Source: Bdellovibrionales bacterium
GTDB lineage: Bacteria > Bdellovibrionota > Bacteriovoracia > Bacteriovoracales > Bacteriovoracaceae
Assembly (NCBI GenBank): GCA_023250815.1
Contig: JAHEZZ010000002.1
Coordinates: 1 to 49,263 of the forward strand
Reading direction: 5' to 3'
Length of the DNA: 49,263 nucleotides
Shown here: positions 8,265-46,178 of the stretch, one piece after another
Numbering within the stretch: position 1 is the first letter of the stretch
Layout: every line of letters begins with the position of its first letter
Made by a program: the position numbers and the translations under genes
The notes under the pieces: model-generated
Database searches by the model: none
Told to the model about the DNA's origin: nothing
The model's input: only the letters and a program-made list of their open reading frames with translations

Positions 8265-8469
8265 CTACATTCCTCATGTTTGAGTTTTCAAAAGCGGTAC
8301 TATGCCTGTCACTTTATTCCGCCAAAAAAGATGACGGAAGATAACATCAGAAGGGAGACGCCGCCAATCTTTTGCACCATTTTTTTTAATTATTTAATAA
8401 CAATTCATTTGCTTCATTCAAAATATCCTTGATATTATTTATATTGATCCCAGTATACAATGGAAAATA

Positions 8470-22873: not shown

Positions 22874-23239
22874 ATGCCATTTAATGTCTTAGAAAATACG
22901 GTCGGGGGAAAAAATGTAGAGCTTCCCGCTGGTTCAAATTTACAAGATCAAATTAAAAAACTGATCGCCTCTTCGCCAGTTTTTCTTTTTATGAAAGGCA
23001 CTCCTGATTCACCGATGTGTGGATTTTCTGCCAATGTCGTACGTATTTTAAACGACCAGCAAGTGTCCTTTAATTCATTTGATATTCTTTTAAATGGAGA
23101 AGTTCGTCAGGCGGTAAAAGATTTTTCAAACTGGCCAACTTATCCTCAGCTTTATATTAAAGGTGAACTCATTGGCGGAAATGATATTGTTATGGAAATG
23201 TTAAAAACTGGGGAACTAAAAAAAGTTCTTGAAAACTAA
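22874..23239 (+). CDS. grxD: monothiol glutaredoxin (Grx4 type)
   Basis: FMKGTPDSPMCGFSANVV (CGFS), NWPTYPQLYIKGELIGGNDI. Confidence 0.95.
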   Translation: MPFNVLENTVGGKNVELPAGSNLQDQIKKLIASSPVFLFMKGTPDSPMCGFSANVVRILNDQQVSFNSFDILLNGEVRQAVKDFSNWPTYPQLYIKGELIGGNDIVMEMLKTGELKKVLEN

Positions 23240-24469
23240 TTTTTCTCCCTGCACATTAATCGCCAACATCTTTTGAAAGACACTGGGAAACTCGTTTAAA
23301 AACAAAAAAACAATTTTTTTTATCAACTTTGATGAAGAAAGAAATAAAACAAAAGAGCAATGGTTAACCGTCAAATCTAAATTTCTTTTTCGTTCTTCTT
23401 CAAAATAGCAAAAACACTCATCGATATTTTTAATTTTATCATTTTGATATTCTTTTAAGGCCTTCAAAAGAAGTTGGCATTCATTAAAAGCGCTCGCCAA
23501 TCCCTCGCCCGTTATCCCATCATAAAAAGAAAAGCTGTCGCCCAATAAACAAATCTTTCCCAAACTACCTCTGTTGCTTTTTAAGCCCATCGGGCCAAAA
23601 ACTAAAAAGTCATTTAATGAAATGGCATTCTTCAGCTTTTCTTTTAGTGAAGGAAAATATTTTAAAAAAATTTCTGAGTCACTGCCGGGTTTCATCTGTT
23701 TGGCATTAAAAAGCCAAGTAATTCCAATTTTATCCGAAGACAGTGGAGTAATATAGGCCTCAATCCCATCACCCCAAAGAACCTCTACTTTGTTGCTCCA
23801 TGGCCTTATAGTGTAATGTTCCCTGGCCCCTAAACGGAGTGGAAATTCCCCCTTTCTTTTTAAAATCTGAGGGTATAATAATTGACGTTTAATTTCTAAT
23901 TTTTGTTTAAGTAACGAGCTATGGCCATCACAAAGCAGAACCAAGTCTGCTTCAATTATACTCATAACGTTTGAGTTATTAGAAACGGATTGCTCAGTCA
24001 TAAAAGTAACAAAAGGGCGCACCCCTGTCTTAATATCGACAACCTTCGAGGATGTTTTGATGACAACGCCAGAATCTCTTGCTTTATTAAAGAGTAATTG
24101 AGAAAGCACAGTTCTTTTTATTCCCATTCCTCGTGAATTTTTGGGGAATTTACCTTCCAGGCAAATATTTTGATGAGCAAAATTAATACCTTCAAAATAA
24201 TAATAATTATTTTTATCATTTAAAAAATTTTGATCTAAAATATTTTCATCTTTTAAAAAATCTACCGCCCGAGGCATCAGCCCTTCGCCACAAACTTTAT
24301 CAACTGGAAATTTTTCTTTTTCTAGGACTACAACTTCTTTAATTATTTTAGACAATAAAATAGCGGCCACTAAACCGCAGGGCCCCCCGCCAATAATTAC
24401 AACTTTTGAAATTTTATCTTGCTCCTTGCTGGTCATTCTACTCCATTCTAAAAAGTGAGGCCTCTGCAC
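23216..24469 (-). CDS. FAD-dependent oxidoreductase (geranylgeranyl reductase-like)
   Basis: VVIIGGGPCGLVAAILLSK, CGEGLMPRA, ICLLGDSFSFYDGITGEGLASA. Confidence 0.88.
   Translation of the reverse strand: MQRPHFLEWSRMTSKEQDKISKVVIIGGGPCGLVAAILLSKIIKEVVVLEKEKFPVDKVCGEGLMPRAVDFLKDENILDQNFLNDKNNYYYFEGINFAHQNICLEGKFPKNSRGMGIKRTVLSQLLFNKARDSGVVIKTSSKVVDIKTGVRPFVTFMTEQSVSNNSNVMSIIEADLVLLCDGHSSLLKQKLEIKRQLLYPQILKRKGEFPLRLGAREHYTIRPWSNKVEVLWGDGIEAYITPLSSDKIGITWLFNAKQMKPGSDSEIFLKYFPSLKEKLKNAISLNDFLVFGPMGLKSNRGSLGKICLLGDSFSFYDGITGEGLASAFNECQLLLKALKEYQNDKIKNIDECFCYFEEERKRNLDLTVNHCSFVLFLSSSKLIKKIVFLFLNEFPSVFQKMLAINVQGEKLVFKNFF
23957..23998 (-). repeat. palindromic repeat P1, copy C, in frame inside the FAD oxidoreductase
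   Basis: actgagcaatccgtttctaataactcaaacgttatgagtata; 33/42 identity to copy A; encodes TEQSVSNNSNVMSI. Confidence 0.75.
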
Positions 24470-25515: not shown

Positions 25516-26211
25516 TTATTTGAGGGGAATATTGATTTTAAATTTCACTTGAATTTCATCAGATACTTTTGCGACTAAAATTGAAGGATCTGGAATTTCT
25601 AATTCTTTTAAACTTAAAATAGTTTGGCCTTCACTTCTAAGCCACGCCTCATTATTTAAGGTGCTTTTAAAAATTTTTATTTTTAATTTTATATTTTTTT
25701 CTTTTCCTCGAATAAAAATAACTCCCATAACTTCTTCTTCATTGGCCTCCGTTGGACTTATTTTAACCGGGCCTTGAATCATGATTTTAATATCCATAAA
25801 TTGGGGAGACCCCAAACATAACTCGTGCAACTTTTTATCTCGCGACTCTTGATCTGTATCCATACTTAAAATGGGAAAGATCACCTCCATTCCCTCTACT
25901 GATTCTTGAGTTAAGAGGCCTTGCGCTTTGTAATTTTTGACCAGGCCCGAAACCTGAGATGAAAAAAGACCAATTTTGGTACTCGTCACCATAAAACTCA
26001 AACCTTCACTGAGTGGAACAAGTTCTCCTTCGTATGCCTTATGTGCTTCTGTAAAATTTTCGAAATTTTTAGAGTAAGACAATTTCTGGTTCTTGGCCTT
26101 GGCAATTGGCACTAATAGAAAAAAAAGAAGCACAAAAATTAAAGTTCTATACATCACATTTACACTCACCAGGTTTGAGTTTTCCGCTGCGGACATCTCA
26201 GTATAATTCAC
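25516..26211 (-). CDS. secreted YceI-like protein
   Basis: Signal peptide MYRTLIFVLLFFLLVPIAKA; YceI-like layout; true start probably MYRTL, since upstream residues fall in repeat P1-B. Confidence 0.65.
   Translation of the reverse strand: MNYTEMSAAENSNLVSVNVMYRTLIFVLLFFLLVPIAKAKNQKLSYSKNFENFTEAHKAYEGELVPLSEGLSFMVTSTKIGLFSSQVSGLVKNYKAQGLLTQESVEGMEVIFPILSMDTDQESRDKKLHELCLGSPQFMDIKIMIQGPVKISPTEANEEEVMGVIFIRGKEKNIKLKIKIFKSTLNNEAWLRSEGQTILSLKELEIPDPSILVAKVSDEIQVKFKINIPLK
26161..26202 (-). repeat. palindromic repeat P1, copy B
   Basis: actgagatgtccgcagcggaaaactcaaacctggtgagtgta; 35/42 identity to copy A. Confidence 0.75.
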
Positions 26212-33807: not shown

Positions 33808-33842
33808 GGTATTATACCAATTCCACTAATTAATATTGGTAT
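33808..33842 (+). repeat. dispersed repeat Z1
   Basis: ggtattATACCAATtccactaattaatATTGGTAT; 23/24 match to Z2 over accaattccactaattaatattgg. Confidence 0.7.
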
Positions 33843-38606: not shown

Positions 38607-38931
38607 CTTTAAAATCTAAGCGATGCCCATTGGCAAAATCCAAATTCCCAATCAAGAGGCCTTCATGTTCCGCAACCAAAATAATCTTCGAGGAATGCTC
38701 CAAGTGCTGCGAAATAAAATTGACTTCTTCTTCAACCGCCAGATTGAGTTCGTCTGCTTCAGTCAAAGTATAAATATTCTCTGAGATAATAGATTTGGTC
38801 ATTTCCAAAATCCGTGCAGCATCTGATTTTTCAGCGGTACGAATCAGGAGATTTTTTCCGCCTTTTGATTGAAAATTCACTTTCCGAAAACTTGCCATCC
38901 CTGTACTCCACACAGTAAATCTATCCAACAT
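38607..38931 (-). pseudogene. GNAT acetyltransferase N-terminal fragment
   Basis: LLIRTAEKSDAARILEMTKSII...IILVAEHEGLLIGNLDFANGHR then reads into the antisense of the tRNA (KVVRPARFELATPTMSR). Confidence 0.65.
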
Positions 38932-38957
38932 TAATTAGTGGAATTGGTATTAATACC
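38925..38957 (-). repeat. dispersed repeat Z2 (inverted relative to Z1)
   Basis: reverse complement ggtattaataccaattccactaattaatgttgg. Confidence 0.7.
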
Positions 38958-44231: not shown

Positions 44232-45296
44232 ATGAAAATTTCGATTGATGACAAAATTAAAAAATTAATTTCTGCCTTTCAATTACCTCCTGTTTTAGGA
44301 TTTGGAACAGTGATGGCCCCTATCATGATCAGCGTCGATTATGAAAAAGGAAATTGGAATAAAGCAGAGGTCATACCTTATGGCCCACTTTCTTTATATC
44401 CCACTTGTAAAGCACTTCATTATGCTCAAGAAATTTTTGAAGGGCTTAAGGCCTATAAAGTAAACGGAGAAGGGCCCTATATTTTTCGCCCAGAAGAAAA
44501 TGCCAAACGCTTTAATATTTCTGCCACTCGCATGGCCATGCCCTCCATGAATGAAAATCAATTTATCGATTTATGCGAGCAGTTTGCCCTACTATGCGCT
44601 CCCCTTATTCCCTTAAATTCTGGAGAATCCCTCTATATCAGACCTTTCATGTTTGCCACTGAAGAATCTTTGGGAATTAAACCCAGTGAAAAATATAAAT
44701 TTCTTATTATCGGTTCGCCTTCTGGGGCCTATGTTACTGGTGATTCCATGAGCTGCCTGATCGAAAGAGAATACGTTAGAGCAAGCCCCGGCGGAACGGG
44801 ATTCGCAAAAACTGGCGGTAATTATGCTCGCTCAATTTTATCTTCGATTAAGGCAAAAGATTTGGGATTAAATCAAAGTCTTTGGCTAGATTCTAAAAAC
44901 CGGCGATTCATTGAGGAACTCTCCGGTATGAATTTTTTTGCAATGATAAAAGGAGTCATTCACACTCCTTCCCTTAGCGATACTATTTTAAAAGGAATCA
45001 CCAGAGATTGTACTTTGGAAATTGCCAAGAAAGAAGGGATCAAAATCCATGAAGGGCCAATTGATATTGAACAACTTATTAAGGATATAAAGACGGGTGA
45101 TTGCAGCGAACTCTTTGCCTGTGGAACTGCGGCAATTATCACACCAATTGCCAAGCTCTGTGAGGAAAATGCGATAAGCTATACTCCCAAATACCCAGAT
45201 GCCCCGACAGGACTCAAACTTCGAAAAATATTATTAGATATCCAAGAAGGAAAAACAAATGATCCTTTTAGGTGGCGAAAAAAACTAATTTCATAA
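44232..45296 (+). CDS. ilvE: branched-chain amino acid aminotransferase
   Basis: EIFEGLKAYK, GGTGFAKTGGNYARSI, EELSGMNFF, GTAAIITPI. Confidence 0.92.
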   Translation: MKISIDDKIKKLISAFQLPPVLGFGTVMAPIMISVDYEKGNWNKAEVIPYGPLSLYPTCKALHYAQEIFEGLKAYKVNGEGPYIFRPEENAKRFNISATRMAMPSMNENQFIDLCEQFALLCAPLIPLNSGESLYIRPFMFATEESLGIKPSEKYKFLIIGSPSGAYVTGDSMSCLIEREYVRASPGGTGFAKTGGNYARSILSSIKAKDLGLNQSLWLDSKNRRFIEELSGMNFFAMIKGVIHTPSLSDTILKGITRDCTLEIAKKEGIKIHEGPIDIEQLIKDIKTGDCSELFACGTAAIITPIAKLCEENAISYTPKYPDAPTGLKLRKILLDIQEGKTNDPFRWRKKLIS

Positions 45297-46178
45297 AGGG
45301 CATAAAATTTTTCGGGCGACAACAATGCCGGCCCAATCACTTTCTTCTGGAGCTACATTGCCCTCGATTTTATCCTCTCCACAAATCATTTCAATTTTAA
45401 ATCCCGCCTCAGATAAAAAAATCTCTATCTCATCTTTATAAAAAAAACGCATGGGGTGTTTTTCTAAAAAAGTCTCAATCATTTTTCCTTGATGATCAAA
45501 AACTTTAACATCAATCATAATATCGGCCTGATTCTCACGTCCCTTTGATAGGGGTGTAACCTCTCTGACAATTTTTCCTGCGGAAATAAGAAATTCTTTT
45601 TTCCTGCTCTCAAGTCCCAAGTGTTTAACACCTGTCTTGTTCCAATAATCAAATATAAACAGGCCATCTTTTTTCAAATACCTGGCGGCATTTTTCAAGT
45701 AATTTTGAACATCATTGTCATTGGTCATATAAGAAAAAACATGAAAAAGTGAAATGCAGGTATCAAAAGAGGTCGATATATTTAATTCCAGAGAATCTTT
45801 TGCCAAGTTAAGGATATGAAATGAGACCTCTCGATTTTTATCTTTTATACTCATCACGTTTGAGTTTTCCGTTACGGAAAACTCAGTATTACGAGTGGTA
45901 TACCCGCAGCGGTTTGCTTGAAAAGCAAAGTGTGAAGGGTATAGTTTCATGGCAAACTGTTCGATCATTTCCCCTGATAGATCCACTCCGGTGTAATTTT
46001 CATAAAAGGGACAAAGATGTAAAGCATGCCCCCCGGTTCCACAACCTAACTCAAGCAAGTTTCCCAAGTGAAATTTGCCATTCATTTTTTCAAAAATTTT
46101 CTTGAGATTTAAAATTTCTTTTTGATAATCTTTATCGGAGTAAATGGCATCGTAGTATTCGGCATAATGCTTAAACAC
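45291..46178 (-). CDS. SAM-dependent methyltransferase carrying in-frame repeat insertion
   Basis: NLLELGCGTGGHALHL, YTGVDLSGEMIEQF, then repeat-derived KLYPSHFAFQANRCGYTTRNTEFSVTENSNVMSI. Confidence 0.88.
   Translation of the reverse strand: MFKHYAEYYDAIYSDKDYQKEILNLKKIFEKMNGKFHLGNLLELGCGTGGHALHLCPFYENYTGVDLSGEMIEQFAMKLYPSHFAFQANRCGYTTRNTEFSVTENSNVMSIKDKNREVSFHILNLAKDSLELNISTSFDTCISLFHVFSYMTNDNDVQNYLKNAARYLKKDGLFIFDYWNKTGVKHLGLESRKKEFLISAGKIVREVTPLSKGRENQADIMIDVKVFDHQGKMIETFLEKHPMRFFYKDEIEIFLSEAGFKIEMICGEDKIEGNVAPEESDWAGIVVARKILCPL
45846..45887 (-). repeat. palindromic repeat P1, copy A (in frame)
   Basis: Contains perfect palindrome TGAGTTTTCCGTtACGGAAAACTCA at 45861-45885; encodes TEFSVTENSNVMSI. 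Confidence 0.85.
45897..45947. repeat. palindromic repeat P2, copy 2, adjacent to P1-A
   Basis: TATACCC...TTTGCTTgaaAAGCAAA...GGGTATA; shares gaagggtatagttt with the 4911 copy. Confidence 0.65.

Follow-up and report, generated by a model that had tools for sequence, protein, structure and literature searches.

Palindromic insertions that lie in frame within bacterial genes are best known from Rickettsia. Correia elements and ERIC are about 100-150 bp long, have inverted ends and carry TA at their termini. The Rickettsia palindromic elements (RPEs; reviewed in PMC10969869, PMC3767692) are short palindromic repeats (100-150 bp), some of which lie in frame in unrelated protein genes, and their peptides have been modelled at solvent-exposed sites. 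TA ends are found in most bacterial MITEs (PMC5896051) and some ERIC copies are intragenic (PMC10969869). The Coxiella burnetii elements QMITE1 (about 400 bp) and QMITE2 (about 190 bp) are MITEs with hairpins. Some of their copies overlap genes or are in frame in ORFs, and direct repeats of 7-9 bp lie on either side of QMITE2 (PMC5896051). That MITEs shape proteins in this way in other prokaryotes was called no more than conceivable in a 2024 review (PMC10969869). A literature search outside subscription journals found no paper pairing Bdellovibrio with the phrase miniature inverted-repeat.

Here we describe a 98-bp element within a methyltransferase gene of an uncultured bacterium, related to the predator Bdellovibrio, that groups with Bacteriovoracaceae- and Bdellovibrio-labelled MAGs; the window is the whole stretch of 49,263 nucleotides that was analysed. 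The best reading of the element is a new MITE family that is RPE-like in behaviour. RPEs are its closest counterparts in behaviour, while Correia elements, ERIC and the Coxiella QMITEs are closest in anatomy. The analogy with RPEs, drawn in an initial annotation of this DNA, was borne out by in-frame copies in unrelated proteins; it concerns behaviour only and makes no claim of descent. Unlike RPEs, the copies described here are mostly intergenic, have recognisable inverted-repeat ends and a probable TA target, and are found in hosts of another phylum. The family shares its size, inverted ends and TA termini with Correia elements and ERIC but differs in terminal sequence and hosts, and its intragenic copies are as a rule complete and in frame. 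The QMITEs are likewise hairpin MITEs with some copies overlapping genes or in frame, but they are longer and QMITE2 has its direct repeats; a Coxiellaceae-labelled MAG contains elements with the ends of the present family, which we set beside the QMITEs by description only. Transposon-ended elements lie in frame here in seven genes, in two genera of a different phylum from Rickettsia, with element-free orthologues known. Because the ends, the target and the reading phase can be read here, the route from mobile DNA to a new protein segment becomes testable.

The host gene (45291-46178, minus strand) encodes a class I SAM-dependent methyltransferase of 295 aa, as judged by Pfam matches (Methyltransf_25/23/11), orthologues and the best PDB fold match, 1y8c. 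The element, TATACTCATCACGTTTGAGTTTTCCGTTACGGAAAACTCAGTATTACGAGTGGTATACCCGCAGCGGTTTGCTTGAAAAGCAAAGTGTGAAGGGTATA, lies antisense within this ORF at 45846-45943 (plus strand) and is a TATA-ended composite of two hairpin halves. The first half (57 bp, 45846-45902, plus strand) contains the perfect 25-bp palindrome TGAGTTTTCCGTtACGGAAAACTCA at 45861-45885, with 12-bp arms and a 1-base centre; near-identical 57-bp units were found alone elsewhere in the genome. The second half (45 bp, 45899-45943, plus strand) is the hairpin TATACCC...TTTGCTT/AAGCAAA...GGGTATA, and a TATA is common to both halves. The idea that the second half had inserted within the first at a TA was rejected, since 57+43=100 and 98 bp were observed. 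As a single strand the element folded into two hairpins at -33.5 kcal/mol (z = -6.3 relative to shuffles). Covariation in the hairpins gave 15 double-changed cells compared to a shuffle mean of 7 (maximum 14), a count confounded by relatedness and by the palindrome-based search. Rfam matched only a tRNA in the window. The initial annotation had placed the palindrome and the TATACCC..GGGTATA element correctly within this ORF; what it took for two adjacent hairpin elements belong to a single 98-bp element, of which most full copies contain both halves, and the extra protein segment, which is real, spans 32 residues (80-111, YPSHFAFQANRCGYTTRNTEFSVTENSNVMSI) rather than about 35.

The genome is a fragmented draft of 2.69 Mb (254 contigs, 86% complete). 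A search allowing up to 3 mismatches located the 25-mer palindrome at about 34 places, compared to zero matches for the same 25-mer written backwards. Searches with each half, followed by an HMM over the fetched loci, yielded 72 non-redundant full or partial copies (about 70), 52 with a complete first half. They occur in forms of 98 bp and 57 bp and in a diverged variant of about 97 bp; TATA ends are common to all forms, and the sequence beyond the ends differs between copies. By far the majority are intergenic. The methyltransferase copy (HMM match, 5e-32) is 98% identical to many copies elsewhere in the genome, outside this gene. The initial annotation stated that both halves have relatives in the window, which clearly held for the first half only: decayed first-half copies are present at 26163-26206 (plus strand, E=6e-9), at the start of ORF 25516-26211 (minus strand) or immediately before it, and at 23958-24007 (plus strand, E=5e-5), in frame within the ORF of an FAD-dependent oxidoreductase (23216-24469, minus strand), with a weak match at 8268-8297. 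The second half has no relatives in the window and many in the genome. These genomic copies, together with the empty reversed control, refute the reading of the segment as a native, lineage-specific methyltransferase loop whose DNA is palindromic by chance, to which we assign practically no probability even though the site is a helix-strand loop whose length differs by a few residues among orthologues.

Orthologues without the element establish its presence or absence at the level of the gene. Three methyltransferases from related genomes (G004, G025 and G019; 31-35% identical), which share the neighbouring aminotransferase gene, lack the segment, and the alignment is almost gap-free at the site once the 32 residues are removed, a net insertion of 96 bp. 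Similarly, a flavoprotein of genome G023 with a 125-bp copy reads NIEKNKKL-(41 aa)-PPGDKVLVIGGG, and its G029 orthologue (69/65% identical) reads NIDEQKKTIKGKKIVVIGGG, lacking the 41 residues and otherwise equal in length. The net gain in the flavoprotein is 123 bp, the element minus 2. Relatives of a Lon-domain protein lack a third in-frame copy. The same arithmetic in the methyltransferase suggests a change from ATG AAA CTA AAA GAT to ATG AAA CTA (TAC...ATA) AAA GAT, with predicted junction peptides FAMKLYPSHFAF and NVMSIKDK. Because the net insertion equals the element minus 2, it fits duplication of a TA upon insertion, as judged from protein-level length in diverged orthologues. From these net lengths, the presumed target TA would be 45942-45943, at codon positions 2-3 of CTA (Leu79), and its presumed duplicate 45846-45847. 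The initial annotation had named a lack of further copies and a segment shared by orthologues as grounds against its proposal; about 70 copies were found, and the syntenic orthologues do not have the 32 residues.

The insert lies after the helix that follows the SAM-binding motif and before the next strand. In an AlphaFold2 model built from only four sequences, pLDDT was near 40 at residues 68-83 and 89-131, covering the insert and its neighbourhood, and 65-94 for most remaining residues. The surface loop that the initial annotation suggested modelling is compatible with the low pLDDT, though unproven by it: the insert may form a loop with no fixed structure, and the added peptide is probably tolerated as an exposed loop.

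The ends of the element recur in other genomes. The left terminal inverted repeat (24 nt, imperfect, 45846-45869, plus strand) is assigned by comparison with the TATACCCWTCGNANTTTGNTTTTC ends of related genomes, and the right one (24 nt, 45920-45943, minus strand) has 1 mismatch to the shared end pattern; their presumed role is that of transposon ends. Among 140 related genomes searched, G023, from another genus of the same family (Bdellovibrio sp. NC_groundwater_449 MAG), contained 98-bp copies 82% identical to those of this genome, four of them identical to each other at separate sites. A 125-bp element is also present in G023, in roughly 15 copies; its GC-rich core is unrelated, and its terminal repeat, TATACCCTTCGNANTTTGNTTTTC, is the same. 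In G003 (Bacteriovoracaceae B02.bin.3), elements of 106, 122 and 146 bp have the same type of terminal repeat and different cores. Several core sequences are thus found with one terminal repeat across three genera. A scan of GTDB species genomes with the end motif matched G023, G003 and two Gammaproteobacteria MAGs, one of them labelled Coxiellaceae; plasmids and phages gave no match. The gammaproteobacterial loci (L195, L207, L210, L255-L270) hold elements of ~100-200 bp with the TATACCCTTCGCATTTTGGTTTTC end, and only short MITE-like copies, no autonomous element, were seen in these two MAGs. The presence of the same ends in distantly related bacteria suggests that the superfamily, or its transposase, has spread horizontally. 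The patchy distribution is compatible with mobility and uninformative on the vector.

The family has what is expected of a MITE in size and copy number (57- and 97/98-bp forms, too short to hold a transposase gene, in about 70 copies) and in its 24-bp imperfect ends, whose motif recurs with different cores in G003 and G023. An autonomous element with the same ends, which is usual for a MITE and not required, was not found among the IS630-type and DDE_Tnp_1 transposases of four genomes (this one and three relatives), and terminal-repeat pairs 0.5-4 kb apart in the fetched loci included none that was convincing. IS630-type transposases were rejected as mobiliser; one copy in G003 lies close to a MITE but has other ends (CGAAAATAATTTCAG). 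The DDE_Tnp_1 transposases were likewise rejected for their other ends. The strong hairpins, together with the small size and the many copies, also recall REP/BIME repeats, which would make these REP-like elements moved as single-strand hairpins by a Y1 (RAYT/IS200-type) tyrosine transposase rather than by cut-and-paste. We consider this very unlikely, given that inverted ends of 24 bp are conserved across several families whose cores differ, and that a net length equal to the element minus 2 agrees with a TA-duplicating transposon. At the base of the stems in the element no REP/RAYT GTAG tag was noticed.

We hold with high confidence that this segment represents a single copy of a MITE moved in trans and inserting at TA, of which in-frame survivors are kept and tolerated by the host. 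Such a short non-autonomous DNA transposon, with its 24-bp imperfect inverted ends, would be mobilised in trans by a putative transposase and would insert at TA with duplication of the TA. Since the element is 98 bp long (net 96 bp) and free of stops in both orientations in the phase that places the target TA at codon positions 2-3 (the NTA phase), an insertion in this phase would add 32 aa and leave the gene open. Insertions out of phase would break genes and be lost, so that surviving copies would be intergenic or in frame. In the methyltransferase, the peptide would be tolerated, probably as an exposed loop, with no benefit to the host.

A census was made by joining the flanks of each copy and seeking a long ORF across the junction, for 88 copies (52 from this genome and 36 from related genomes). 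Seven complete intragenic copies were found in two genera, and 7/7 were in frame and open through the element in the NTA phase. The three hosts in this genome are the methyltransferase, a trypsin-like protease and a protein with CxxCH-like motifs and no Pfam match, the last of which was seen in the survey of copies and missed by the joined-flank test due to its mutated right end. The four hosts in G023 are an FAD oxidase, the flavoprotein, another methyltransferase and a protein with a Lon-type domain. Two decayed halves, one within the oxidoreductase at 23216-24469 and one within a BrkB-type membrane protein, are likewise in frame. None of the 88 tested copies was seen to disrupt a gene; one flagged disruption and two 'kept' cases (L151, L156) lie, by our reading, upstream of likely start codons. 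In the window, 982 of 2848 coding TAs (34%) are in the NTA phase, and seven of seven would be expected by chance with a probability of about 0.0005. The plain reading of this in-frame survival is purifying selection, with out-of-phase insertions lost, in a census that cannot separate purifying selection from a target preference for intergenic DNA. The mobile or selfish palindromic family that leaves genes open, as proposed in the initial annotation, is upheld by about 70 copies and by seven complete in-frame copies in unrelated proteins; no support was found for its alternative, a domesticated family. Under domestication, the peptide or the RNA hairpin would be useful to the host protein or mRNA and in-frame copies would be kept for that benefit. 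The strong folding of the element and intragenic copies that are open without exception would agree with this, but the host proteins are unrelated, the peptide varies with orientation and family, orthologues manage without the insert, copies are overwhelmingly intergenic, and selection to keep the gene suffices for in-frame survival. We rate domestication as very unlikely.

The MITE reading raises the question of whether the element itself is adapted to coding sequence. Each of the two 98-bp families has just two frames without stop codons, the NTA-phase frame of either strand, and both NTA-phase frames are likewise open in the 125-bp family. When the core was shuffled and the ends kept, both frames were open in 14-34% of cases in the three families showing this. 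Element lengths of 98, 125, 140, 146 and 122 bp give net insertions in multiples of three, whereas the 106-bp form in G003 does not. Coding compatibility by design is suggestive only, a lead and not a result. That the terminal repeat is under selection for protein compatibility, and that evolution has fitted the superfamily to spread within coding sequence in the form of in-frame peptides, is a tentative idea and on balance a doubtful one.

Some copies in this genome occur as near duplicates. The pairs C241/C185 and C88/C197 have the same flanks and lie at contig ends; within each pair, the loop or the arms of the hairpin differ. Such differences suggest that the population sampled contained strains with variant palindromes. 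Two further contig ends, the starts of C75 (L162) and C41 (L163), have ~160 bases in common from the TATACCCTTCGCACTTTATTTTAC end with a few differences; the overlap is probably an assembly break or strain variation. Elsewhere in the window, a 26-bp inverted pair at 33814-33839 and 38925-38950 (ATACCAATTCCACTAATTAATATTGG) is 96% complementary and 5 kb apart, and may represent another repeat family. Nearly the same sequence adjoins a 57-bp MITE copy at locus L033 (CCAATTCCACTAATTAATGTTGG).
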